This document shows positions 8,976 to 23,160 of a stretch of DNA of 64,000 bases, one piece after another. Both the position numbers and the translations under genes were made by a program. The number at the start of each line of letters is the position of its first letter. The stretch's first letter is position 1. Under the pieces are notes generated by a model that saw only the letters and a program-made list of their open reading frames with translations, ran no database searches and was not told where the DNA came from. The stretch comes from Calothrix anomala FACHB-343 (GTDB taxonomy: Bacteria; Cyanobacteriota; Cyanobacteriia; Cyanobacteriales; Nostocaceae), in assembly GCF_014696435.1 (NCBI RefSeq), contig NZ_JACJQG010000028.1:37992-101991 (forward strand), read 5' to 3'.

Positions 8976-11456
8976 TTAAGCTGTAAGTTGTCTGACTTGT
9001 TCGGCGGAATCTAGTTGTAATGCGGAAGCGGCGATCGCCTGACTTTGACTGATACTTAATTGGGCGATCGCTTGTTTTAAAATAGGGATGGCTTGGGGAT
9101 TAACGCTTAATTCATCTAATCCTAATCCCAATAAAATTGCTGTGGCGGCGGTTTCGGCTGCAAGTTCTCCACATAATCCTACCCAAATTCCGGCGTCATG
9201 AGCGACTTTCACTGTGCGCTGAATCATGCGCAGTACCGCAGGATGTAATGCGTCGGTTAAATTAGCGACGCGGGGGTTATTGCGATCGCCTGCCATGACA
9301 TACTGACTTAAGTCGTTGGTGCCGATACTAAAAAAGTCTACCTCAGCTGCTAGTTGATCTGCGATCGCTACGGCTGCGGGGACTTCAATCATGATACCTA
9401 GTTGAATGTTGGCATCAAAGGGAATCGCTGCTTGTCTGAGTTCCCGTTGCACTTCATTTAAAATTTCCTTAGCTGCCCTAACTTCGGTGATACTGGCAAT
9501 CATCGGCAGCATAATTTTAATATTGTGTCCTGTACTAGCTCGTAAAATTGCCCGCAATTGAGTTGTGAATATGTCGGGATGTTCTAAACAAAAGCGAATT
9601 CCCCGACAACCTAAAAAGGGGTTTGTCTCTGGTACACCTTGAATATAAGGCAGTGGTTTATCCCCACCCACATCTAAAGTCCGAATAATTAATGGCTGTT
9701 GATCTAAAACTTGGGCGATCGCTTGGTATACTGCTAATTGCTCCTCTTCCGTGGGAGCACTTGTCCTACCTAAATACAGGAACTCTGTACGCAGTAGTCC
9801 TACTCCTTCAGCACCGCTAGCTAAAGCCACTTGAACATCAGCTATGCTACCGATGTTAGCAAAGACACTGACTTGCTTACCATCGCGCGTAATTGCTGGT
9901 TGATGTGCTTTGGCTAGCGCTTCCTGTTGTGCAGTTTGCCAAGCTTCTCGCTTCGCTTCTAATATACTCAAAATATCTGCTTCTGGCTCTACCCAGGCTT
10001 TACCACTGCCGCCATCAAGGGCCATAATTGTGCCATCTTCCAGATACAATATCCCTGGATCTACGCCCAAAACCGCCGGAATCCCTAATGTCCGGGCGAT
10101 AATTGCACTGTGAGATGTGGCGCTACCTGATGTGGTACAAATCCCTAATACTTTGCTGGGATCTAAGCCAATGGTATCTGAAGGTGTTAAATCGCTGGCG
10201 ACTAAAATCGCTGGTTCTGTCAATTCTAAAGCACTGGCTGATGCGCCGGTAAGTAAGCGCAGTACTCTTTGTCCGACATCAACCACATCTTCCACTCGTT
10301 CCTGTAAATAAGCATCTTCTAGTTGATGGTAGCTAGAAGCGACTTCATCAACAACAGCTTGCCAAGCGGCTTCGGCGTTGAGATGATGGTCATAAATGCG
10401 CGATCGCACTGCTTCTAAAAGTACCGGATCTTCTAAAAATAACAGATGAGCGACAAAAATCGCCGCTTCTGTATCGCCAATTTGCAGAGAAGCTTGAGAA
10501 AATAATGTCTGAATTTGCTGTTGAGCGGTAGCGATGGCTATTTGTAACCTTTGCCACTCTGCTTCTGCATCTTCTACGTGATATTGTGTAGCAGTAACGG
10601 CAGGTAGTTGATAATGGACTACAGGCGCGATCGCAACTCCTGGTGAAGCTGGAATTCCCGATAGTTCGCCAGCAGAAGCGGGGCTAACTTCTGTTGACTC
10701 CACCACTGGCGGCGCAAATGTACTATCATCTTCACCAAAGTTATTATTAATTAATACTTCTAAGGCGGCTAAGGCAGCATCAGCATCGATACCAGTAGCC
10801 GTAATTACTAATTCATGCCCTTGACGCACTCCTAAAGTGGCGACTTGGTTGATACTGTCACCTCTAACGGCATCTGTACCTCTTGTAACATTCCTTACCT
10901 TAATTTGCGCCTGATATTGGGCGGCAGTAGTGACAAATTGCGCGGCTGGACGGGCGTGTAAACCCAAGCGATTGTTAACTGTGAGGTGAATTTCTTTTGT
11001 TGGGAATTCTGCGTGAGATGTAGGAATAACTGATGCGGGGCTGCTATCTATGCCGAGCAAAGTATTTTTTGCTACTAAAGCTGATTGTGCTTCAGTTATA
11101 ACTTGCTGAATATTATGACCTGCGGCGGCGGCAACTACAGCTGCGATCGCACCTTCAACCAGTGGTGCTGCACATAAATGGACTTTTTCCCGTTGTTGTG
11201 GGTTAAGGAAATCTAGCGCCATTTCTGCACTCATCACAGCGCTACCCAAATCCATTAACACTAAAACACCATCATCGTTGAAGATAGAAGCGATCGCCTG
11301 ATAAACTTGCATGGGATCTGTACCCAAAGGATTTTCCGGATCGTCAATTCCAGCTGCGATCGCTAACGGGACTTTACCCTGAACCATTTGCGCTGCTAGT
11401 TCCTGTACACCAAGCGCGAGTTGTTTACTGTGAGAAACAATGACTATTCCAATCAC
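8976..11456 (-). CDS. DhaM-HPr-Enzyme I fusion phosphotransferase
   Basis: A single 826-residue chain joining three phosphotransferase-system modules. Residues 1-130 are a DhaM/EIIA-mannose domain with the phosphorylatable His9 in IVIVSHSK. Residues 154-245 are HPr with His167 in NNRLGLHARPAAQ. Residues 264-826 are Enzyme I: GIPASPGVAIAPV, the active His449 in GSATSHSAIIAR, and PEP-binding motifs GVGLLRTEFLYLG, TLDVGGDKPLPY, IEVPAAVAI and FSIGTNDLSQY. Such a chain can pass phosphate from PEP through EI and HPr to DhaM, which in other bacteria phosphorylates ADP on dihydroxyacetone kinase subunit DhaL. No dhaK or dhaL gene is in the window, so its partner is elsewhere or its role is regulatory. 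ATG at 11456 starts directly at the DhaM fold. Confidence 0.93.
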   Translation of the reverse strand: MIGIVIVSHSKQLALGVQELAAQMVQGKVPLAIAAGIDDPENPLGTDPMQVYQAIASIFNDDGVLVLMDLGSAVMSAEMALDFLNPQQREKVHLCAAPLVEGAIAAVVAAAAGHNIQQVITEAQSALVAKNTLLGIDSSPASVIPTSHAEFPTKEIHLTVNNRLGLHARPAAQFVTTAAQYQAQIKVRNVTRGTDAVRGDSINQVATLGVRQGHELVITATGIDADAALAALEVLINNNFGEDDSTFAPPVVESTEVSPASAGELSGIPASPGVAIAPVVHYQLPAVTATQYHVEDAEAEWQRLQIAIATAQQQIQTLFSQASLQIGDTEAAIFVAHLLFLEDPVLLEAVRSRIYDHHLNAEAAWQAVVDEVASSYHQLEDAYLQERVEDVVDVGQRVLRLLTGASASALELTEPAILVASDLTPSDTIGLDPSKVLGICTTSGSATSHSAIIARTLGIPAVLGVDPGILYLEDGTIMALDGGSGKAWVEPEADILSILEAKREAWQTAQQEALAKAHQPAITRDGKQVSVFANIGSIADVQVALASGAEGVGLLRTEFLYLGRTSAPTEEEQLAVYQAIAQVLDQQPLIIRTLDVGGDKPLPYIQGVPETNPFLGCRGIRFCLEHPDIFTTQLRAILRASTGHNIKIMLPMIASITEVRAAKEILNEVQRELRQAAIPFDANIQLGIMIEVPAAVAIADQLAAEVDFFSIGTNDLSQYVMAGDRNNPRVANLTDALHPAVLRMIQRTVKVAHDAGIWVGLCGELAAETAATAILLGLGLDELSVNPQAIPILKQAIAQLSISQSQAIAASALQLDSAEQVRQLTA

Positions 11457-11570: not shown

Positions 11571-11676
11571 AAAGTCGAATTCTGTTCCCGTTGTGACAGT
11601 TCTGGGAATTATGAAGATAGGCATAAGAACTGTAAGTATAGTTTACCTACAGTCATTTTTATGGTACAAAAGTACT
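11571..11676 (+). promoter_or_regulatory. Leader region of LRV gene 1 (copy 1 of a duplicated upstream block)
   Basis: Aligns without gaps to 16971-17076 upstream of LRV gene 2, offset exactly 5,400 bp, with TCTGGGAATTATGAAGATAGG fully shared. It contains the inverted pair ACAGTTCT/AGAACTGT around that core and a CTACAGTC octamer at 11647-11654. In copy 2 the same octamer forms a perfect hairpin, and the 5 bases of its loop are in inverted orientation relative to copy 1 (TTTAC versus GTAAA). The conservation suggests promoter or operator function. Confidence 0.6.
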
Positions 11677-11727
11677 AAGTTGTCCTAATTCCGAAGGTTG
11701 AAGATCCCTGCGTCTATACGTAGTAGG

Positions 11728-11760
11728 TTTTCAGTTGGGGTTTAAATCCCCGACTGAAAA
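11728..11760. repeat. Hairpin between the leader and LRV gene 1
   Basis: TTTTCAGTTGGGG pairs with CCCCGACTGAAAA (one mismatch or wobble) around TTTAAAT. It is followed by five AATTTTG heptamers (11768-11801). This segment is absent from copy 2 and looks like an insertion into the 5-prime untranslated region; as a strong stem it could attenuate transcription. Confidence 0.6.
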
Positions 11761-11812
11761 TGTCTTTAATTTTGAATTTTGAATTTTGAATTTTGAATTT
11801 TTAATAGGTTTT

Positions 11813-14800
11813 ATGGTGATGCAACCTCTTCAGCCAGTTAGCGCCGCCGATTTACAAGCATTTTTAGATACACCAGAAGATTTATTACAGCAGCCTGTGG
11901 AATTGCAATTAGCTGTTGCAAACTATATTGAAACACCGCGATCGCTCTTAGAAGTCTTAGTCAATAGCACTGATAAGCAAGTATCACAAGCCGCTAGTTT
12001 ACACGTAAATTATGCCGGAGAAATCACAGAAAATTGGCAAAAAGCGGTAGATACCATCCTGCAACAACAAGAACTAGGGCAAAATGACCGATTAGCTGTA
12101 GAATTGCTCAAATTGGGAACTGTACCGCCATGCTTTTTTAGCGAATGGGTTCCCGCAGAAAAGCTCATTCCAGCGTTGCGTAATCCCCATATACCCTTAA
12201 AATATCGCTTACAATTACTTGAACGCTTGGCGCAGGAACCGACTTTAAAACCACGCTTACAAGTTGCAGAATCACCAGAAACACCCTTAGCAGTATTAGA
12301 ACAACTAGCAGGGGATTTAGAATTACCTATTAGGTTAGCAGTAAAGTTTAACCCCAATTGTCCACCATCATTAATTGAACTAGTGGAAGGACAATATACC
12401 GTTGCATCTGACTGGAATACCGATGCAGAACAATTAGCAATGTTAGCACAAAGCCGTTGGGCTTGGATTCGCTTGGCGGTGGCGCAAAATCCTTGTGCGA
12501 CAGCAGAAACTTTAATGCAGTTGGCTGGAGATACTGTATATAAAATTCAGTTAGCAGTGGCGAAGAATCCAGAAACACCCGCAGATGTGTTAGCTGTATT
12601 AGCGCAACATCAAGATAAAACAATCCAAGCAACTGTAACAGAACATCGAAATGCGACGGAAGAGATATTACATCAATTATTTCCCAATCAGCAGCATCTT
12701 TTGCAAAGACGGGAAAATTTACCAACTAGTATTTTAGAAAAATTTTTTAATGAAGCAGCAACAGATAAACCTATTTGGAAAAATTCTGAACTGCGGTATT
12801 TGTATTTAAATCAACCAAATACACCTACTTGGATTTTAGCTGAATTAGCGAATGTTGATTTAGAAGTATTGAGAGCAGAGATACTTACTAGAAGTAATTC
12901 TTCACCGATTATCAAAACTTTAGAAACATGGATTCAAGATCAGACAATATTTTTAGCTAATGTTGCCAAACATCCCCAAGTTTCAGGGGAAATATTACAG
13001 CATTTGGCACAATATCCTAATCCATATATACATCTGGCTGTTGCGCAAAATTCCCAAACACCTGAAGCCTTGCGAGATATGCTATTACAGCAATTAGCAG
13101 TAGGCTCAAATTTAAATATTCGGCTGCAATTGGCAAGTAATCCCCAAACTCCGGTGGCAATTTTAGAACAGCTAGCGGGTGCATCATCTTCCCTCAATAT
13201 AATGATAGAGATGTTGCAGCAAATTGCCCCAGATGCTACACCATCATTACTTAACCGAATCAAAGAATTTATCGATAACCGCCAGTCACCAGAATTAATT
13301 ATTTTTTGGCTGCAACAGGGGGAAGAATTTCGCAACTCTATATTAAAAGAATGGGATAATTTAGTCGAGTCGTTGAATGCATCAGAGAGGCAAACACTGG
13401 CATACTTAGCTAGCCAGAAATCATCAATTAAATGGGAAGGGAGATTTACAGCAGAAAGACGCGATCGCTCAGGAAAGAAATCAGTACCTAGCGATTCTCA
13501 AGCAGCAGAAAATTATCAAATGCTAGATGGAATATTGCATTTATTAAATAGTCCGTACAACAGCGATCGCAGTAATTTAGAAGTTGTGGCAGCATTATTA
13601 GGTAATCCTTCTACACCAGCAACTTTAAGAGAGCGATTGTGGCAACAATCCCAAAAAAGTCCTGACGAATTGGGACGCTATTTAAAAGATGCTGAAATGC
13701 GGATGGCACTAGCTCTTAATCCCACTGTACTTGAAGCAGAGCGGAATGAATATTTACAACAATTAATGGCAACAAGCAATAATTTCCGCGAGCAATTAGC
13801 TAGACATCTTGCTACACCTGAATACCTTCTCAGACGCATCGCTGATGAACGCAAAGAGTATTTATGGCGTACTTTAGCAGAAAATCCCAATACTCCTGCT
13901 GATTTATTACTGCGTTTTCTCAATGAAGAAGTTGAGAAAACAGTTTATAGTAATACCACTATGTTTGACTTAGTGATTGCTCATCCTAACTTACCTGTTT
14001 TACAACGTTATCGATTATTACTAGAGAAAGCAGAAGCGCAAGAAATTACCAAAGCTCATCAATTAATGGCGCGTCGTACTGGTAGTCCTTATGCGTTAGC
14101 GCAGATTTTAGCAAAAGGCGATCGCAATTCTAAACTTACCGCCGCACGTAGCAATCAAACCCCTATCCCAGTATTACAACAACTAGCAAAAGATGCAGAT
14201 GAAGCCATCCGGCAAGCTGTTTCTAAAAATGCCAATTTACCTTTAAATAACTTATTAGAATTTACACAAGATCCAAGCGTTCATGTACGTTTAAATCTTG
14301 CCTATAAACCATTACATAGTAAAATACCTACCCCTATTCAATTATTAGAAATATTGGCACAGGATGAATCACCAATAATCAGAGCCAAAGTTGCAGAACA
14401 TCCCGATACATCTGTGGAAATATTGGTGCAGTTAGCCAACGATACCAGTCGTGAAGTCAAAACAAAACTAATTGCTAACCCTAACACTCCCGTAACAATT
14501 CTGACTCGTTTGGGATTAGAAGAAAATCTCGTAAGTCAACGCAATCCCAATACACCAGGAATTGTACTTGCTCAAGCAGTTAAAAGCATGAGTGGGAAAA
14601 ATCTCGCTGATTTTATTAAACATCCTGTCAAAGGTTCGCAAATGCCGGCGGAAACTTTGGCACAGTTAGCAACTCACACCGATAGTTCAGTGCGTTATCG
14701 CGTCGCGTCGCACCCCAACACCCCAGCCACAGTTTTAAGACAGTTAGCGAAAGATTCCTATGTCGCTACAGTTCGCGCTGTCGCCAGTAATCCCAACACA

Positions 14801-15877
14801 TCCCCGGAAACATTGGAAGTACTCGCCAGCCATCCAGATTTTACAACGCGATTGGACGTTGCACGCAATCCTAATACACCGCCTCGCGCACTTTCCCAAA
14901 TTGTTCAAAGTACCCAAAATTCAGGAAATACCCCAAATCAAACCGTGGATATGCTCAAGAGTGCATTTCCCGGTAATCATAATGATGTGCTGCGTTGCAT
15001 AGCTGGGAATCCGCGCACACCCATTGAAGCATTAGAAATTTTGGCAAGAAGAGAGTTTTTAGGTGCAACACCAGATCCGCAAGCATTCTTTCCACCTACA
15101 ACGAATGATGAGATCGTGCGATCGCTTGCATATAATCCCAGCTTAACACCACAACTGCTCGCCATTCTCACTCAAGACCCTAGCGTAGAGGTGCGAGTTT
15201 GTTTAGTTCGCCATCCCAACTTAACAGAAGCTTTATGGTTGCGCCTAGCTGAAGATACAGCAATATCGGTGCGGGAAGCAGTTGGAGCTGCAAACAACGC
15301 ACCTGTAAACGTTTTGGAATTATTGGCGCGGGATGAGCAAAGCGAGGTAAAAATTCAAGTAGCGACTAACTCTAATACACCAATTCCTGTTTTAGAAATT
15401 TTAGCCAGCGACGAAAACCCCAGTGTCAGAACTGCTGCGGCTAGTAATCCTCATCTTTCTGAAACAATCTTGGCACAATTAGCAACTGATGAAAAAGTCG
15501 AAGTTCGCCGTGCAGTTGCTCAAAATCCCAACACTCCGGCGGCTATTAAACAAAGCCTGCGCGATTTAGTTTTTCAACCCACCACCCAGCAAACTAGTTC
15601 CACCTTACGCGGACTCAGCCGCATTTACAACCCCAGCAGCGATGATATAACAAGCATACTGGCAGAATATGCAACTTCCGACAACGCCTTTGTTCGCTTA
15701 GTAACTCTACTCCATCCGCAAACTCCGGCGGAAATATTGACACAAGCAGCACAATCTGCATCTTGGCTAGAACGCTATGCAGTTGCAGATAACCCCGCAA
15801 CCCCAGAGGAACTACGCCAGCAACTAACCCACGATAGTAATCGCATTGTCAAAGCAGTTGCGATCGCAAATCTTTAA
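11813..15877 (+). CDS. Leucine-rich-repeat-variant (LRV/HEAT-like) repeat protein, copy 1
   Basis: A protein of about 1,354 residues built of dozens of roughly 24-residue repeats with the consensus LLxxLAxDxxxxVRxxVAxNPNTPxxx, for example VRRAVAQNPNTPAAI. This is the all-helical LRV solenoid, common in Nostocales and of unknown function. The N-terminal 300 residues and C-terminal 90 residues (LSRIYNPSSDDI onwards) closely match LRV copy 2, while the middle is diverged. No signal peptide or membrane segment is seen. A TTG at 11786 would extend the frame but lies in the AATTTTG repeat; ATG at 11813 or 11819 (MQPLQ, shared with copy 2) is more credible. A NuiA-like gene follows 134 bp downstream on the same strand. 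A scaffold or protein-binding role is inference. Confidence 0.88.
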   Translation: MVMQPLQPVSAADLQAFLDTPEDLLQQPVELQLAVANYIETPRSLLEVLVNSTDKQVSQAASLHVNYAGEITENWQKAVDTILQQQELGQNDRLAVELLKLGTVPPCFFSEWVPAEKLIPALRNPHIPLKYRLQLLERLAQEPTLKPRLQVAESPETPLAVLEQLAGDLELPIRLAVKFNPNCPPSLIELVEGQYTVASDWNTDAEQLAMLAQSRWAWIRLAVAQNPCATAETLMQLAGDTVYKIQLAVAKNPETPADVLAVLAQHQDKTIQATVTEHRNATEEILHQLFPNQQHLLQRRENLPTSILEKFFNEAATDKPIWKNSELRYLYLNQPNTPTWILAELANVDLEVLRAEILTRSNSSPIIKTLETWIQDQTIFLANVAKHPQVSGEILQHLAQYPNPYIHLAVAQNSQTPEALRDMLLQQLAVGSNLNIRLQLASNPQTPVAILEQLAGASSSLNIMIEMLQQIAPDATPSLLNRIKEFIDNRQSPELIIFWLQQGEEFRNSILKEWDNLVESLNASERQTLAYLASQKSSIKWEGRFTAERRDRSGKKSVPSDSQAAENYQMLDGILHLLNSPYNSDRSNLEVVAALLGNPSTPATLRERLWQQSQKSPDELGRYLKDAEMRMALALNPTVLEAERNEYLQQLMATSNNFREQLARHLATPEYLLRRIADERKEYLWRTLAENPNTPADLLLRFLNEEVEKTVYSNTTMFDLVIAHPNLPVLQRYRLLLEKAEAQEITKAHQLMARRTGSPYALAQILAKGDRNSKLTAARSNQTPIPVLQQLAKDADEAIRQAVSKNANLPLNNLLEFTQDPSVHVRLNLAYKPLHSKIPTPIQLLEILAQDESPIIRAKVAEHPDTSVEILVQLANDTSREVKTKLIANPNTPVTILTRLGLEENLVSQRNPNTPGIVLAQAVKSMSGKNLADFIKHPVKGSQMPAETLAQLATHTDSSVRYRVASHPNTPATVLRQLAKDSYVATVRAVASNPNTSPETLEVLASHPDFTTRLDVARNPNTPPRALSQIVQSTQNSGNTPNQTVDMLKSAFPGNHNDVLRCIAGNPRTPIEALEILARREFLGATPDPQAFFPPTTNDEIVRSLAYNPSLTPQLLAILTQDPSVEVRVCLVRHPNLTEALWLRLAEDTAISVREAVGAANNAPVNVLELLARDEQSEVKIQVATNSNTPIPVLEILASDENPSVRTAAASNPHLSETILAQLATDEKVEVRRAVAQNPNTPAAIKQSLRDLVFQPTTQQTSSTLRGLSRIYNPSSDDITSILAEYATSDNAFVRLVTLLHPQTPAEILTQAAQSASWLERYAVADNPATPEELRQQLTHDSNRIVKAVAIANL

Positions 15878-15977
15878 ATTGCACCTAACTATGTTAAAAA
15901 ACGTAGACTGAAAACCCTTACCCATGACAAAGCGCAAAGTCTGAGCGGAGGTTTACTCCGATCAGAACTTTGTAAGA

Positions 15978-16004
15978 ATGACAAATGACAAATGACAAAT
16001 GACA
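15978..16004. repeat. AAATGAC heptamer tandem repeat
   Basis: Four near-perfect TGACAAA units sit directly upstream of the NuiA-like gene start, in the 134-bp gap after LRV copy 1. A small hairpin (CGGAGGTTTACTCCG, 15946-15960) precedes them. No ribosome binding site is evident between the repeat and the ATG. Confidence 0.7.
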
Positions 16005-16011
16005 GCCTTAT

Positions 16012-16956
16012 ATGAACTTAGAAACCGCAAAAATCTTAGGTACTCTTGAAGTATTAATTGATAAACGCCTTGAGTTTCGTCTGCACAATAATCACCATTC
16101 TTCTTTAGAACCTTTCGTTTGGGATATCCAGGAAAAAGGCGATTTTAGTTTACTCAATCTGGGACGCGATCGCAAATGGATAACTCTCACCGATATTGAT
16201 GTTGCTGTCAAAAATTGGCAAGCATTAGAACGGCGCGGTTATTTAAACCCAGATGATTATCCTGATGACTACGAAGATGTTATCGCTCCGGAATTAGCTG
16301 ATGCAAGAGCAGAAATATATGAGGAATTAGCTGATGCTATTTCAGAAAACCTTCAGAATATCGAGGTTTTCAAATTTAGCCGCATTCCTATGTATTCATT
16401 TTATGTTGTGTTAGGTCAAGACCAAGAAAATAATTGGTTTTGTTTTTCTCAAACTGTTGCCAGAGAAACTAAATTACAAGGAGAAATCAAATATTCTAAT
16501 TTACCTGATTTAACTATGCAGCCATCTTTGGATGAAAATACGGCTAAATTGAAAGATAAATTTCAGCAAATCATCAATAAATTAGAACCGATTACTATTT
16601 ATGGTTACTATGGTGGCGGCTATGATTATAGATTTCCACATTATTTAGTTCAAGCAATAAGCGACTCTAGAGAACAAGCAATATTAATCGCTCTCCAACA
16701 AGCAGGAATGCTTGATATTGGTAAATTTCACAAGTTTGACATAGAAGCTTTATCTTGGAATTGGGATGAAAATGAAATTGCTGAATTTTACCCACAATAT
16801 GACAAGATAAATCAATTTATCACTCAAAAACTTTCTGATATTCAGATGTTGAGATGTAGTTTTTGGAACCGTGAATGTATATATGTTCTCGGAACAACCA
16901 AGGCTGAAGATTTAGCAGGAATCTATATTGAAAGTAAATTTGATTTTAATCCTTAA
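16012..16956 (+). CDS. NuiA-like tandem-domain protein, paired with LRV copy 1
   Basis: A protein of 314 residues with two similar halves. The first runs from TAKILGTLEVLIDKR through FVWDIQEKGDFSLLNL to FYVVLGQDQENNWFC. The second ends NQFITQKLSDIQMLRC, then SFWNRECIYVLGTTKAEDL and AGIYIESKFDFNP. The pattern of a helix ending in NL, a strand, then (V/I)(Y)(V/I)xGxTxxxxxAGI matches the C-terminal half of NuiA, the Anabaena inhibitor of the nuclease NucA, though NuiA has only one domain of about 135 residues. Two paralogues lie at 21274 and 22243. Nuclease inhibition is the family's known activity; whether it applies here is inference. No secretion signal is seen. Confidence 0.72.
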   Translation: MNLETAKILGTLEVLIDKRLEFRLHNNHHSSLEPFVWDIQEKGDFSLLNLGRDRKWITLTDIDVAVKNWQALERRGYLNPDDYPDDYEDVIAPELADARAEIYEELADAISENLQNIEVFKFSRIPMYSFYVVLGQDQENNWFCFSQTVARETKLQGEIKYSNLPDLTMQPSLDENTAKLKDKFQQIINKLEPITIYGYYGGGYDYRFPHYLVQAISDSREQAILIALQQAGMLDIGKFHKFDIEALSWNWDENEIAEFYPQYDKINQFITQKLSDIQMLRCSFWNRECIYVLGTTKAEDLAGIYIESKFDFNP

Positions 16957-16970
16957 GTGATTTTTTCATC

Positions 16971-17076
16971 GAAGTCAAATTCTGTTCCTATCTTCATAAT
17001 TCTGGGAATTATGAAGATAGGAATAAAAACTGTGACTGTAGGTAAACTACAGTCAGTTTTATAGTATATGTGTACT
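16971..17076 (+). promoter_or_regulatory. Leader region of LRV gene 2 with perfect hairpins
   Basis: Copy 2 of the block at 11571. It holds a perfect 18-bp inverted repeat: TTCCTATCTTCATAATTC (16985-17002) and its complement at 17006-17023, loop TGG. A second perfect stem follows: GACTGTAG (17034-17041) and CTACAGTC (17047-17054), loop GTAAA. The first could terminate readthrough from the upstream NuiA-like gene; the second is operator-like. Confidence 0.65.
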
Positions 17077-17097
17077 ATTATATTGGGTGTGATTATC

Positions 17098-20000
17098 ATG
17101 CAACCTCTTCAGCTAGTTAGCGCCGCCGATTTACAAGCATTTTTAGATACACCAGAACAGTTATTACAGCAGCCAACAGAATTGCAATTAGCTGTTGCAA
17201 ACTACATTGAAACACCGCGATCGCTCTTAGAAGTCCTCGTTAATAGCACTGATAGCCAAGTATCAAAAACCGCCAGCTTACACGTAAATTATGTCGGAGA
17301 AATCACAGAAAATTGGCAAAAAGCGGTAGATACCATCCTGCAACAACAAGAACTAGGGCAAAATGACCGATTAGCTGTAGAATTGCTCAAATTGGGAACT
17401 GTACCGCCATGCTTTTTTAGCGAATGGGTTCCCGCAGAAAAGCTCATTCCAGCGTTGCGTAATCCCCATATACCCTTAAAATATCGCTTACAATTACTTG
17501 AACGCTTGGCGCAGGAACCGACTTTAAAACCACGCTTACAAGTTGCAGAATCACCAGAAACACCCTTAGCAGTATTAGAGCAGTTAGCAGGGGATTTAGA
17601 ATTACCTATTAGGTTAGCGGTGAAGTTTAACCCCAATTGTCCCCCATCATTAATTGAATTAGTAGAGGGACAATATACCATTGCATCTGACTGGAATACC
17701 GATGCAGAACAATTAGCAATGTTAGCACAAAGCCGTTGGGCTTGGATTCGCTTGGCGGTGGCGCAAAATCCTTCCGCGACAGCAGAAACTTTAATGCAGT
17801 TGGCTGGAGATAGGGTATATAAAATTCAGTTAGCAGTGGCGAAGAATCCAGAAACACCCGCAGATGTGTTAGCTGTATTAGCGCAATATCAAAATCAAAC
17901 AATCGAAGCAACTGTAGCCGAACATATCAATGCAACGGAAGAGATATTACATCAATTATTTCCCAATCAGCAGCAACTTTTAAAAAGACGAGAAAATTTA
18001 CCGACTAGTATTTTAGAAAGACTTTTTAATGAAGGGTTAAGAGATCATTATTTATTTTTACAACAACCAAATACACCTACATGGATTTTAGCTGAATTTG
18101 CGAAAGTTGATTTAGAGGCTTTAAGAGTAGCGAAACGAGCAAAGCATACGCATCTACCATTACCAGAAGTTTTTGAGCAATGGATTAGAGATGATATTAG
18201 GTTTTTGGTTGATGTTGCCAAACATCCCCAAGTTTCGCTAGAAATTTTAGAACATTTAATTCAATATCCCCATCCATATATTAAGCTAGCAGTTGCCCAA
18301 AATTCTCTGATTGATCCAGCGAAAAAAATTGAGTTGCTAGAGGAGTTAGTCAAAGCCGGAGAAAGGGATGTTCTCAAGCTAATCGCCGCAGATTCGCAAA
18401 CACCTGTGGCGATTTTAGAACAAATAGTTGAACAGGAATCACCTCAAAATAAATTCCGCTTCAAACTCCGCCGCCTATTAACTAGAAATCCAGAAGCAGA
18501 TAATAGAGAATCTGTAGCTGATTTTTGTATGGATACAATCAGAAAAATTCTCGCTCCATATCAAATATCAATTGATGTTGAGGAATGGTTTAATTTAATT
18601 GAAAGTTATCAATGGACAACATTACTAGAAAATTATACTTATGTTGGCGATTTACAAGGAAGATACCGCCAAGATAAAAGTTTTTACGAACAGGTAAATG
18701 AGGAATGGAAACAATTTCTGCCAACTATATCAGAGTCAGAACGACAAAAAATTATCACTAATATATTAGAAATTCCCGATACGCTGGTAGATGTGGTAAA
18801 AGACGATCGCACTGTTGCAGTAGCTTTAGTGGGTAATCCTAGTCTACCAGTACCTTTACGCGAAAAATTGCAAAAGCAACTCACTCGTCCTTTAGAAAAA
18901 TTAAATTCTTACGAAAATGATTGCGATATGCGGATGGCTTTAGCTTATAATTTGCAAGTTCCCGAAGCCGAACGCAAAGAATATTTTCAGCAACTTCTCT
19001 CGACAAGTGGGGACTATATTCCAGAAACAATTGCCAGAAATCCCAATACTCCAACAGAAATTATAAACCAATTAATGACTCGTCCTGGTGTCGGTCGTCA
19101 AGCAGTTTCTCGCAATCCTCATGCACCTGCTAGTGCATTAGCAGAATTAGCTCAAGATACTAATAGCACTACACGAAATTGGGTAGCTGAAAATCCCGGT
19201 ACGCCGATTAATATTTTACTGCAACTTGCTAAACAACCTGTAGAAAAGACAAATAATAATGTTCCCACTGTTCGAGGAACTGTCATCAAAAATCCTCATT
19301 TGCCTGCAAGAGAACGCCATCGGATATTATTAGCAATGGAGGAAGAACAAGAAATTACGGAAGCGCATCAATTAATGGCGCGTCGTGCTGATAGTCCTTA
19401 TGCTTTAGCACAGGTTTTAGAAAAAGGCGATCGCAATTCTAAAATTACCGCCGCACGTAGTCATAAAACTCCAATTCAAGTATTACAACAACTCGCAAAA
19501 GATGCAGATGAAACTGTGCGTTCTGTAGTCTCAGAAAATGCTAATTTACCACTCAGCAATTTATTAGAGTTGACACAAGACTCTAGTTTAAATGTTCGCG
19601 CAGGTTTAGCCAGGAAGCGACTGCATAAACCAACTGCTGTAGAAGTACTGCAACATTTAGCTAATGATGAATCAGCACAAATTAGAGCGCAGGTTGCTGC
19701 TAATACTGACACTCCAGAGGAATTATTGAGAAAGCTGGCTAATGACTCTAATAAAGAAGTGTGGGAAGCATTGGCGCGTAACCCAAATACACCTGTGGAT
19801 ATTTTAGAATTTTTGGGGGTAGAGAAAGGCGTTGTTAATCCTTGGAATGGGAAAACACCTGCTAAAGCTTTAGCAAAAGCTGTAGAAAACACTTTAAAAA
19901 TGGACTTCCGATTTCGAGATAAAGCTTTAGATGAATTACTCAAGCCGCGAAATTCCGAAATGCCAGCAGAGATATTGGTAAAATTAGCTAACTACAAAAC

Positions 20001-21102
20001 ATCATGGATTCGTTCGGCTGTAGCGCATCATCCCAATACCCCGATTTTTGCCTTAGAACCCTTAATTAATGATGATTATAGCCCCGTTTTGTGGGTGATC
20101 GCGCGTCGTGCTGACACTCCCCCCCAACTCCTCGAAAGGCTGCTATTAAGGTTTACAGATACAAAAAATCAAGACTACGAACAAATTTGTCATGCAATTT
20201 GCGATCGCCGGGAACTTCCCCCCAACCTGTTAGAATTCTTGATGGAAAGTAACCTACAACAGGTTTATCTGCGAATAGCAGCGCAAGCAAATCTCCCACC
20301 AACAATTGTTGAAAGACTCATGGCGATGTCAAATGAGTCTGTGTTAACTAACCTAGCGCGCAATCATAGCCTCAGCGCTGAATTTTTAACTCGACTGGCG
20401 CAAAATTCTAATGCTAATATTTGTAGTGCGATCGCCAATCATCCCCACATTACCCCAGAAATTTGGCTACAGCTTGCTAACCATGCAGAAGTTAAAGTAC
20501 GTCAGTTAGTTGCGGCTAACTCAAATACTCCTGTAAATATTCTGGAAATCTTAGCCAGCGATATAGATCAAGTTGTGCGTGCAAATGTTGCGAATCATCG
20601 CAATTTACCTGTACAGATTTTAGAACAATTAGCACAAGATGAAGAAGCATTTGTTCGTGTAGCCATTGCTAATAATCCGCATTCACCAGAAACAATCCTG
20701 ACACAACTAGCAACTGATGAAAAAATCGAAATTCGTCGTGCTGTTGCACTTCATCCTCATACCCCTGCGACTATTAAACAAACCCTGCGTGATTTTCTTA
20801 TCCAACCCAACAATCAACAAAGTGTCAGCACTACCTTACGCGGAATCAGCCGCATTTACAACCCCAGCAGCGACGACATTACAACCATACTTGCAGAATA
20901 TGCGAATTCCGAAAACGCCTTTGTTCGCTTAGTAACCTTACTCCATCCCCTAACTCCCCCAGAAATATTAACACAAGCAGCACAATCTCAATCTTGGCTA
21001 GAACGCTACGCAGTTGCAGATAACCCCGCAACTCCAGAACAATTACGCCAAAAACTTGCGCAAGATAGTAATCGCATTGTTCGTGTAGCAGCTAAAGTTT
21101 AG
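17098..21102 (+). CDS. Leucine-rich-repeat-variant (LRV/HEAT-like) repeat protein, copy 2
   Basis: A paralogue of the 11813 gene, about 1,334 residues, with the same repeat type (NPETPADVLAVLAQ, NPNTPVDILEFLG, HPHTPATIKQTLR). DNA 17295-17579 is identical to 12016-12300 over 285 bp, which is unexpected given heavy divergence in the middle of the protein (around residues 300-600). The last 90 residues again match (LSRIYNPSSDDI becomes ISRIYNPSSDDI). ATG at 17098 (MQPLQLVSAADLQAF) is chosen because copy 1 has the same start; an in-frame ATG at 17068 is possible. Two NuiA-like genes follow. The variable middle between conserved ends suggests a changing binding surface, which is inference. Confidence 0.88.
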   Translation: MQPLQLVSAADLQAFLDTPEQLLQQPTELQLAVANYIETPRSLLEVLVNSTDSQVSKTASLHVNYVGEITENWQKAVDTILQQQELGQNDRLAVELLKLGTVPPCFFSEWVPAEKLIPALRNPHIPLKYRLQLLERLAQEPTLKPRLQVAESPETPLAVLEQLAGDLELPIRLAVKFNPNCPPSLIELVEGQYTIASDWNTDAEQLAMLAQSRWAWIRLAVAQNPSATAETLMQLAGDRVYKIQLAVAKNPETPADVLAVLAQYQNQTIEATVAEHINATEEILHQLFPNQQQLLKRRENLPTSILERLFNEGLRDHYLFLQQPNTPTWILAEFAKVDLEALRVAKRAKHTHLPLPEVFEQWIRDDIRFLVDVAKHPQVSLEILEHLIQYPHPYIKLAVAQNSLIDPAKKIELLEELVKAGERDVLKLIAADSQTPVAILEQIVEQESPQNKFRFKLRRLLTRNPEADNRESVADFCMDTIRKILAPYQISIDVEEWFNLIESYQWTTLLENYTYVGDLQGRYRQDKSFYEQVNEEWKQFLPTISESERQKIITNILEIPDTLVDVVKDDRTVAVALVGNPSLPVPLREKLQKQLTRPLEKLNSYENDCDMRMALAYNLQVPEAERKEYFQQLLSTSGDYIPETIARNPNTPTEIINQLMTRPGVGRQAVSRNPHAPASALAELAQDTNSTTRNWVAENPGTPINILLQLAKQPVEKTNNNVPTVRGTVIKNPHLPARERHRILLAMEEEQEITEAHQLMARRADSPYALAQVLEKGDRNSKITAARSHKTPIQVLQQLAKDADETVRSVVSENANLPLSNLLELTQDSSLNVRAGLARKRLHKPTAVEVLQHLANDESAQIRAQVAANTDTPEELLRKLANDSNKEVWEALARNPNTPVDILEFLGVEKGVVNPWNGKTPAKALAKAVENTLKMDFRFRDKALDELLKPRNSEMPAEILVKLANYKTSWIRSAVAHHPNTPIFALEPLINDDYSPVLWVIARRADTPPQLLERLLLRFTDTKNQDYEQICHAICDRRELPPNLLEFLMESNLQQVYLRIAAQANLPPTIVERLMAMSNESVLTNLARNHSLSAEFLTRLAQNSNANICSAIANHPHITPEIWLQLANHAEVKVRQLVAANSNTPVNILEILASDIDQVVRANVANHRNLPVQILEQLAQDEEAFVRVAIANNPHSPETILTQLATDEKIEIRRAVALHPHTPATIKQTLRDFLIQPNNQQSVSTTLRGISRIYNPSSDDITTILAEYANSENAFVRLVTLLHPLTPPEILTQAAQSQSWLERYAVADNPATPEQLRQKLAQDSNRIVRVAAKV

Positions 21103-21127
21103 TTGTGAATAATTGAGGATGTTGCAG

Positions 21128-21202
21128 ATGCCATACAGTGATTTTACACTTGCTAAAGTTCGAGAAGCTTTTCAAGCTGCTTTACTTACAGTGTCTTCCT
21201 AA
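21128..21202 (+). pseudogene. Short remnant of a cyanobacterial hypothetical gene
   Basis: A 24-codon frame reading MPYSDFTLAKVREAFQAALL then TVSS and stop. The opening MPYSDFTLxKV resembles the start of a family of roughly 200-residue hypothetical proteins common in cyanobacteria (from memory). The rest of the gene is missing, so this looks like a truncated 5-prime end left in the gap between LRV copy 2 and the NuiA-like gene. Confidence 0.4.
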
Positions 21203-21273
21203 ATCAGCAATTTTAGGTATGTTTCACTTTGCTAACATACCTTCAATATACTTAATATCTAATCTCTGAAATT

Positions 21274-22212
21274 ATGCAACCAAAAACAGAACAAATTCTT
21301 GCAACAATTGAAGTAATTCTTGACTCTAAATCTGGCTTTCATTTACCAGGACATGAAGATGGGGGATATATTTACCCATTTGTTTGGGATGCAACCGAAA
21401 AAGGTGAATTTAATATTCTCAATCTTAGCCTTTCTCAAAATTGGTTAAAACTTACAGATATTGAGAATACAATCAAGAGTTGGCGGACAATGGATTATGC
21501 GAGGAATTTTAATAGCTTTGACTTAAATGAAAACGAACAAACTGATTGGGCTAATAAAATAGAAAACTTATATCAAATCATAAGAGATAATTTACAAGAT
21601 TTAGAATCTTTTTTTGTCAAAACTTCCTCTTACTTTCCCTCAGACGATCTAGTTGGTTTGATTGTTGGTAAAACAGCAGATGGAGATTGGGTTACTGTTT
21701 TCCAGACTCTTTATAAAGAAACTAAAATTCCACAAGAACAACTTTCTCGTTCTCCCGTAATTCATCCTATCTCTGCTCAAGCATTAAGAGAAAATACACT
21801 CAATATAGTCTCACAACTTCAAGCCATCACATCAGAACTAGGAACCATTCATTTAGCAGGAGATATTGGTGGTGGATATTACTATAATTACGATTATCAA
21901 ATCGTCTATGGTGCGGCTGAGACAAAAGAAGCAGCAATGGCACAGGCTCTACAAGCTTCGGGAATGTTAGAAATTGGCATATTTCATAAGTTTTTTTCTG
22001 AGAAAGAATACTTGCCAAGGTGGGCTAACAATTTAGAGGCAAAATATGCAAAATACGATAAATTAAACAAATTTTTACATCATACTTTTGCAGAAGTAAT
22101 GATGTACAGATTTAGCTTTTGGACTCAGGAGAATATCTATATTATTGGCGAAACTTCAGGAGGCGATTGGGCTGGTTTATACATAGAAAGCGAATTTGTG
22201 TATAATCCATAG
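21274..22212 (+). CDS. NuiA-like tandem-domain protein, second copy
   Basis: A protein of 312 residues, paralogous to the one at 16012. The first half has QILATIEVILDSKSGFHLPG, YPFVWDATEKGEFNILNL and IIRDNLQDLESFF, then VGLIVGKTADGDWVTV. The second half has YAKYDKLNKFLHHTFAE, SFWTQENIYIIGETSGGDW and AGLYIESEFVYNP. The stretch IYIIGETSGGDWAGL is close to the C-terminal strand pair of NuiA (VYVIGETPAGNLAGI, from memory), which makes this copy the clearest link to that family. It lies 171 bp after LRV copy 2 and 30 bp before a third paralogue, so an operon is likely. Confidence 0.78.
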   Translation: MQPKTEQILATIEVILDSKSGFHLPGHEDGGYIYPFVWDATEKGEFNILNLSLSQNWLKLTDIENTIKSWRTMDYARNFNSFDLNENEQTDWANKIENLYQIIRDNLQDLESFFVKTSSYFPSDDLVGLIVGKTADGDWVTVFQTLYKETKIPQEQLSRSPVIHPISAQALRENTLNIVSQLQAITSELGTIHLAGDIGGGYYYNYDYQIVYGAAETKEAAMAQALQASGMLEIGIFHKFFSEKEYLPRWANNLEAKYAKYDKLNKFLHHTFAEVMMYRFSFWTQENIYIIGETSGGDWAGLYIESEFVYNP

Positions 22213-22242
22213 TTTTAAATATTACAATTACGTCAAATCACT

Positions 22243-23160
22243 ATGCACCCCGAAACAGAAAAATTGCTCGGTACATTAGAAATCCTCTGTTCTAATGCTT
22301 TTATTTGGGAAACTATCTACCAAGGAGAATTTAACCTATGGAATTTGATGATTTCTCAAAGATTTGTCAACCTAACCGACATAGAACTCGCTTTTGAACA
22401 TTGGCAAAATATTGAGGAATGGGGAACGCCTACAAATCAAAAAGAATATGGTGAGTATGCTCCGACTCGTTCCGAACGTAAAAACAATAACTGGAATGAA
22501 ACTATTGCTGCTGAACGCCAAGAATATTATCAAAAAATTCAGCATATCCTGACTAAAAATTGTCAAAATTTGCAAGCTTATAGTTTATCTATCCCCACAA
22601 CAAACCATCAAAATTTTGAATGGAGACACCCTGATTTTTCTGTATCAATACTAGTAGCTGAAACTAAAAATAATAACTGGTTATGTCTTGCGCCTACTGT
22701 TCCCGATCAAGTCAGCTATAATCGCCGTAAAACAAACCCAGCCACAACGAAAATTGTCCGTGAAAAATCAGCAACTTTAACTGATGAAAGTTTAATAAAC
22801 GAAGTTCAATTATTTCTCGATCATCTCACGCCAATTACCATTTACGGCTACTATCATGGCGGATATAACTATACTTATGAACATCATCTCGTAGGTGCAT
22901 ACGCTAAAACTAAAATATCTGCAATTGAACTTGCATTGCAAGCCGCAACAATGGTAGTAATAGAAAAGCCAACGCTTGAATATGTTAGAGATGCTGACAA
23001 TAGCCGCAAACTCAGCCAATTTATGAACCAGTGTTTGCGCGATCGCACTCTCTACAATATCAGTTTTTGGGATATGGGTTACACCTACGAAGTCGGACAA
23101 ACCCCACCCGGTGATTGGATTGGCGTTCGTTCCACCAGTGAATTTGAATATAATCCTTAG
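22243..23160 (+). CDS. NuiA-like tandem-domain protein, third copy
   Basis: A protein of 305 residues, the most diverged paralogue. It keeps KLLGTLEILCSNAFIWET, LVAETKNNNWLCLAPTV, the shared motif TIYGYYHGGYNYTYEHHL and the ending SFWDMGYTYEVGQTPPGDW, GVRSTSEFEYNP. The N-terminal half is shorter by about 15 residues before the FIWE strand. It starts 30 bp after the second copy and was probably created by tandem duplication. All three copies share the (T)IYGYY(x)GGY(x)Y motif or its variant HLAGDIGGGYYYNYDY between the two domains, which is not part of NuiA and so defines this sub-family. Confidence 0.75.
   Translation: MHPETEKLLGTLEILCSNAFIWETIYQGEFNLWNLMISQRFVNLTDIELAFEHWQNIEEWGTPTNQKEYGEYAPTRSERKNNNWNETIAAERQEYYQKIQHILTKNCQNLQAYSLSIPTTNHQNFEWRHPDFSVSILVAETKNNNWLCLAPTVPDQVSYNRRKTNPATTKIVREKSATLTDESLINEVQLFLDHLTPITIYGYYHGGYNYTYEHHLVGAYAKTKISAIELALQAATMVVIEKPTLEYVRDADNSRKLSQFMNQCLRDRTLYNISFWDMGYTYEVGQTPPGDWIGVRSTSEFEYNP

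Follow-up and report, generated by a model that had tools for sequence, protein, structure and literature searches.

LRV proteins (PF01816) consist of tandem LRV repeats and are generally protein-binding scaffolds; that of Azotobacter vinelandii carries an N-terminal Fe-S cysteine cluster. Canonical NuiA (PF07924), the inhibitor of the Anabaena nuclease NucA, is a single domain of ~135 residues mostly encoded beside nucA, and its S-E-S loop and terminal E-T take part in binding NucA. Conserved ends enclosing a swapped recognition block are found in type I restriction HsdS, phage tail fibres and NLR-type sensors. The immunity proteins of nuclease toxins include HEAT repeat proteins as well as small inhibitors, and those of NucA-type toxins are given as Imm36, SUKH and NTF2 (PMC3482391); the portion of that text available to us mentions neither NuiA nor LRV.

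The locus described here, from a cyanobacterial genome of 9.24 Mb, pairs members of the LRV and NuiA families within a window of 64 kb (the whole stretch of DNA that was analysed). Its LRV proteins share with the family the tandem repeats throughout, but are ~1350 residues long, with an exchangeable centre and a fixed double-NuiA partner; LRV1 lacks the cysteine cluster of the Azotobacter protein, its cysteines (116, 192, 237, 1071 and 1139 of the 1363-residue ORF) being scattered. The small proteins N1–N3 match canonical NuiA with both halves in profile comparisons, but comprise two homologous halves in 305–314 residues, have LRV rather than nucA as neighbour and lack the S-E-S loop and the terminal E-T. 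The likeness to the immunity proteins of polymorphic toxins, as set out in the portion available of PMC3482391, lies in the repeat proteins and small inhibitors; no recurrent toxin-like gene was noticed beside the module in flanks viewed without a domain-model scan. HsdS, tail fibres and NLR-type sensors offer a working analogy only, with conserved ends and a swapped block in common but no shared protein family found (LRV had no PADLOC match).

LRV and NuiA are known families; the module that they form is described by no PADLOC, NCBIfam or PHROG model. PADLOC-DB 2.0.0 returned no match for LRV1, LRV2, N2 or N3 and only E 0.037 for N1, and none of the toxin, effector or defence models of PADLOC, NCBIfam or PHROG fitted the LRV or N proteins; LRV2 has a weak SpbR match, at 30.5 bits where the cut-off is 400. 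No paper on the LRV–NuiA pair was found in one open-licence library, subscription journals being mostly outside the coverage of that search.

Layout, distribution and history of the LRV–NuiA cluster

The module comprises five genes on the + strand, read from the ORFs and Pfam matches (LRV1, N1, LRV2, N2 and N3), and lies, with its associated elements and the adjoining ptsP-like gene, as follows.

8976..11456, − strand: ptsP-like gene adjoining the module, serving as the reference level of identity and as marker for empty sites
11572..11677, + strand: leader of LRV1, 79% match to 16972..17077
11819..15877, + strand: LRV1, all-solenoid LRV protein of 1352 aa from the ATG start common to relatives
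12529..14059, + strand: central exchangeable cassette of LRV1, type A
16012..16956, + strand: N1, double-NuiA protein of subtype 1, 314 aa (PF07924, E 1.3e-10)
16972..17077, + strand: leader copy upstream of LRV2, 79% match to 11572..11677
17098..21102 (ORF listed from 17068), + strand: LRV2, second LRV solenoid, 1334 aa
21113..21202, + strand: remnant of c2, a PD-(D/E)XK-type gene, between LRV2 and N2
21274..22212, + strand: N2, double-NuiA protein of subtype 2, 312 aa (PF07924, E 7.3e-13)
22243..23160, + strand: N3, double-NuiA protein of subtype 3, 305 aa, with the loop of the N-half deleted

LRV repeats run along the entire length of both large proteins (PF01816, E 1.9e-61 for LRV1 and 6.3e-57 for LRV2). 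A longer ORF of 1363 aa opens at a TTG (11786) upstream of LRV1, and we read the ATG at 11819 as the start. The two LRV proteins are 54.7% identical, with 88% DNA identity over ~1.2 kb at the 5′ end; the 5′ third of LRV2 is near LRV1, and its centre and second half are of another type. N1 and N2 exceed the PF07924 cut-off and N3 falls just under it (E 3.5e-4; 21.3 bits against 22.1), the three being mutually only 26–34% identical. Thus the ORFs and Pfam matches confirm the arrangement given in the preliminary description, i.e. two LRV-solenoid genes followed by NuiA-like genes (one after LRV1, two after LRV2), and the 79% match between the leaders confirms its duplicated leader DNA. The leader of LRV2 also contains a short inverted repeat, possibly a regulatory element, and a 39-base piece of it additionally matches the leader region of LRV1 in inverted orientation. 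No RNA elements were found at gathering threshold within the window.

An LRV alignment alone, searched against the genome contigs, detected 41 loci, of which the best 27 (L144–L170, E ≤ 3e-86) were used; L166, whose contig ends 69 bases past the gene, was left out of the pairing count, giving 26 testable loci. In every one of the 26 a double-NuiA gene lies downstream in the same orientation (at ≤ 500 bp in 19). Among paired loci in general, stop and start overlap or nearly touch in several, such as L077 (−3), L146 (−3) and L082 (+4). The 26 come from 13 genera (Calothrix, Nostoc, Tolypothrix, Dulcicalothrix, Scytonematopsis, Aliterella, Aphanothece, Oscillatoria, Phormidium, Okeania, Spirulina, Pleurocapsa and a MAG labelled Thermosynechococcus) and one further MAG, and since many are related they are not 26 independent events. 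The other 14 loci comprise an LRV fragment with N (L180), a locus with N upstream of LRV (L181), one reaching the contig edge (L179), LRV fragments without N (L171 and L182), a tiny fragment with c2 (L184) and another LRV type, at 25–29% identity and without N (L172–L178 and L183). Genes of this other type form tandem arrays in Calothrix-type genomes, with proteins of ~330, 570 and 900 residues and no NuiA-like neighbours.

The forward search, which looked for a same-strand LRV gene at most 3.5 kb upstream of each double-NuiA ORF (E ≤ 1e-40), found one in 25 of 33 loci, the window included; neither LRV nor an LRV remnant was present in the remaining eight (L071, L075, L084, L097, L101, L122, L123 and L124). 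When the threshold was relaxed to 1e-4, so that distant double-NuiA clades were included, the count was 27 of 67. In genus g57, three genomes carry double-NuiA without the LRV family of this module. No LRV gene lies within ~1.5 kb on either side of 30 canonical NuiA genes. Flanking genes are common only to small groups of loci, so the LRV–N pair is not ordinary synteny. The preliminary suggestion of a conserved LRV/NuiA-like pair is therefore borne out by the testable LRV loci (26 of 26): LRV genes are accompanied by one to three double-NuiA genes, and some double-NuiA genes occur without LRV. The module is patchy, since only 14 of 386 sampled cyanobacterial genomes match the three NuiA-like proteins of the window at 1e-5, some of these matches being canonical NuiA. 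Within the host genome PF07924 matches fall only inside this cluster, and the two other LRV genes have no NuiA-like gene beside them.

A tree of 83 double-NuiA proteins places N1, N2 and N3 in separate clades, as old, separate subtypes. The N3 clade includes the Aliterella (L150), L072 and L082 copies, the N2 group includes copies of Aliterella and Pleurocapsa (with some weak inner branches), and N1 forms its own clade, grouping tightly only with the copies of L064 and L065. Since the clades are separate, and since L065 carries only one LRV gene ahead of all three subtypes (N1, N2 and N3), the duplication affected LRV with its leader but not the NuiA-like genes; duplication of the whole LRV–NuiA unit, by which the preliminary description had the pair kept together, was rejected on these grounds. 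In L066 and L067 the last residues of LRV are as in LRV2 and the remaining second half is LRV1-like, from which we infer a loss of N1 and of most of LRV2 when the tandem copies recombined. The N2 of the window is itself a chimera, with a first half like that of G003 (88–97%), a second half like that of G001 (95–100%) and the break near the half boundary.

Exchange of the LRV centre and presence of the module

The module adjoins ptsP in five strains, in which the first LRV has three types of centre (window and G006; G001 and G004; G003). Compared with G001, the closest relative used (ptsP protein 98% identical to that of the host), LRV1 of the window is identical at 659/743 positions (89%) in the 5′ part and 1707/1771 (96%) in the 3′ part against 538/1048 (51%) in the centre, and the 3′ border of the cassette is sharp near window position 14060. 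Conversely, the LRV1 centres of G001 and G004 are identical at 1042/1057 positions (98.6%) against 82.8% in ptsP, with a dS of 0.020 for the centre against 0.371 for the C-half. Window and G006 share 1385/1513 positions (91.5%) in the centre against 82.7% in ptsP, a weaker case because the flanks (88–89%) also exceed ptsP. Between strains, the solenoid thus exchanges its central third as a cassette and keeps its ends conserved. The dN/dS ratio is below 1 everywhere (centre 0.29–0.75; C-half 0.16–0.27), and therefore positive selection was not detected.

The module as a block is likewise present or absent. Strains G002 and G008 have an empty site, in which ptsP is followed by the genes that flank L066 and L067 on the other side, with a short spacer replacing the module; G005 and G007 have ptsP without these flank genes in the stretch examined. 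The LRV family of the module is absent from all four. A phage or plasmid origin was rejected, as no copies of the module were found in viral contigs (searched with one peptide pattern of N) or plasmids (searched with N2).

Our tentative preference is for a cytosolic recognition module in which an exchangeable LRV specificity is combined with a constant double-NuiA partner, serving in immunity or conflict. Because an exchanged centre between conserved ends resembles a specificity part, the central repeats would bind a changing ligand and set specificity, and the conserved ends would hold the double-NuiA proteins. These would be a constant partner needed by LRV, as LRV is found with N and N sometimes without LRV, and would no longer be NucA inhibitors; the assembly could then sense or sequester a phage protein or a rival effector. 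A role in immunity or conflict is probable, fitting better than housekeeping in view of the patchiness, the empty sites and the exchange, and the conflict role put forward in the preliminary description agrees with both cassette exchange and presence/absence. Counted against this reading are the lack of any toxin, effector or defence model match, the dN/dS below 1, the eight strong double-NuiA loci without LRV, the three g57 genomes with double-NuiA and no such LRV, and the lack of a viral-contig or plasmid copy. It is also possible, if somewhat doubtful, that LRV–NuiA constitutes a bacterial system of immunity or recognition not described before, in which the receptor is swappable, its cassette is traded like a specificity allele and its obligatory partner is a doubled former DNase inhibitor that has lost its inhibitory loop. 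If our reading holds, cyanobacteria have a recognition system consisting of a giant solenoid with an exchangeable centre, the NuiA family does something other than guard against NucA, and the alleles needed to probe the specificity of the cassette already occur in natural strains.

Recombination in repeat genes does not require selection, and the mosaic centre might be a by-product of recombination among repeats in a housekeeping or regulatory scaffold. Purifying selection across the entire LRV gene and the generally scaffold-like nature of LRV proteins agree with this, and the conserved ends would supply tracts for recombination. We nevertheless consider it unlikely, given the patchy presence, the empty sites and the many broken copies, and a long cassette with a sharp 3′ border that is near-identical between strains 17% apart in the neighbouring gene.

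The double-NuiA proteins and nuclease A

Each N protein of ~310 residues is, by profile comparison, two NuiA-like halves in tandem, which supports the preliminary view of the small proteins as NuiA relatives. In single profile–profile comparisons the N-half matched canonical NuiA with a probability of 94.7% (E 6e-8), the C-half with 97.0% (E 9e-11) and the two halves matched each other with 94.6% (E 7e-8); hhalign of the double-NuiA alignment (A5) against canonical NuiA gave 96.3%. A profile of 38 double-NuiA sequences found the PDB chains of NuiA (2O3B and 1J57) at E 9e-5, through the C-half only.

The S-E-S loop and the terminal E-T, present in 30/30 canonical NuiA proteins, are missing from the double-NuiA proteins: S-E-S occurs in 0/38 N-halves and 1/38 C-halves (L156, near the start of the C-half), and the C-termini end in E-T in 0/38 and in Y-N-P in 34/38. 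A nucA-type gene lies within 2 kb of 53 of 62 canonical NuiA genes (52 on the opposite strand), counted between NuiA matches better than 1e-30 and ~73 of the PF01223 matches listed; when the untyped, mostly weaker PF01223 matches were compared by eye with the nine misses, none was on the same contig. The corresponding count for double-NuiA genes, within 20 kb, was 0 of 10 places (eight LRV-linked and two orphan). Moreover, G143 carries LRV-N-N without any Endonuclease_NS match, a match present in 72 of 149 genomes. As for a nucA-type gene in the host genome, raised in the preliminary description, one relatively divergent Endonuclease_NS gene does exist there, albeit on another contig (C78) than the module. 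The host genome has no canonical NuiA, and most relatives with canonical NuiA keep it next to a nucA-type gene.

Judged from sequence, inhibition of NucA by N1–N3 is unlikely, and we rejected it as the main reading on the basis of the loop, the C-terminus and the neighbourhood; the label 'nuclease A inhibitor' on double-NuiA genes is probably misleading. A wider version, in line with the neutralising of nucleases suggested in the preliminary description, has LRV capture a nuclease, whether foreign or own, whose active site is then blocked by the NuiA-like subunit; it draws on the homology of both halves to NuiA, on a GDxxG segment in the C-half near that of canonical NuiA and on the acidity that the N proteins share with NuiA (pI 4.6–5.3), and double-NuiA could block another class of nuclease. 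The missing S-E-S loop and E-T terminus, the 10 places without a nucA-type neighbour and the G143 pair make this quite unlikely as an account of the module, for which we retain the recognition reading.

Two further arrangements of NuiA-like domains were observed. In L106 and L107 a divergent double-NuiA gene (~296 aa) adjoins, with an overlap of a few bases, a gene for ~1910 aa with a lipoprotein-like start, possibly another fixed partnership. Proteins of 703 and 663 aa with NuiA-like matches (L132:6240-8351 and L133:6452-8443) are possibly further fusions or multimers of the NuiA domain.

Broken copies and the PD-(D/E)XK neighbour

By ORF length, 34 loci (those truncated at a contig end, and named loci duplicating a G locus, being excluded) include 20 with both LRV and N intact, 11 with LRV short or broken and N intact, one with the reverse and two with both broken. 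Such a bias is what a toxin–antitoxin-like pair might leave, in which the LRV protein, or the LRV-bound state, is harmful and double-NuiA restrains it; the 26 of 26 loci with readable downstream DNA in which LRV is never without double-NuiA, and the eight of 33 in which double-NuiA stands alone, point the same way. More breaks are, however, expected in LRV because its gene is four times longer, some of the shortened versions may still function, LRV is not known to contain a toxic domain, and three LRV fragments occur without N (L171, L182 and L184), so that we hold this explanation to be distinctly unlikely and keep to exchangeable recognition with a constant partner.

The gene c2 encodes a protein of ~210 residues in nine of the 27 loci, lying between LRV and N in seven and upstream of LRV in two, and is absent from the other 18. 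An intact relative in L155 matches the CRISPR-associated PADLOC model PD_DExK (E 3.3e-53), and the motif is kept in 23 diverse copies (D in 20, E in 22 and K in 23). Intact relatives also occupy the same place in L066, L067 and L069. In the window the start and end of the gene are joined in frame with the middle gone. Absence from 18 of 27 loci led us to reject c2 as a core component; it is probably accessory to the module, and this PD-(D/E)XK gene, which accompanies the module in some strains of Nostoc and Calothrix, would be a candidate accessory part of the proposed recognition module, reduced here to a remnant.

A three-gene restriction-like defence of LRV, double-NuiA and PD-(D/E)XK, with the nuclease as effector, is very improbable, for although c2 sits at the module in those nine loci, adjoins an unrelated LRV gene elsewhere in the host genome and matches a CRISPR-associated model, it is missing from most loci, survives only as a remnant in the window and is multicopy (2–18 per genome in 16 genomes), so that its neighbourhood could reflect insertion. 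This other host copy lies on contig C135 (L136:7489-9963, 10064-10669), with c2 ~100 bases upstream of the unrelated LRV gene on the same strand; c2 and LRV therefore meet in two contexts.
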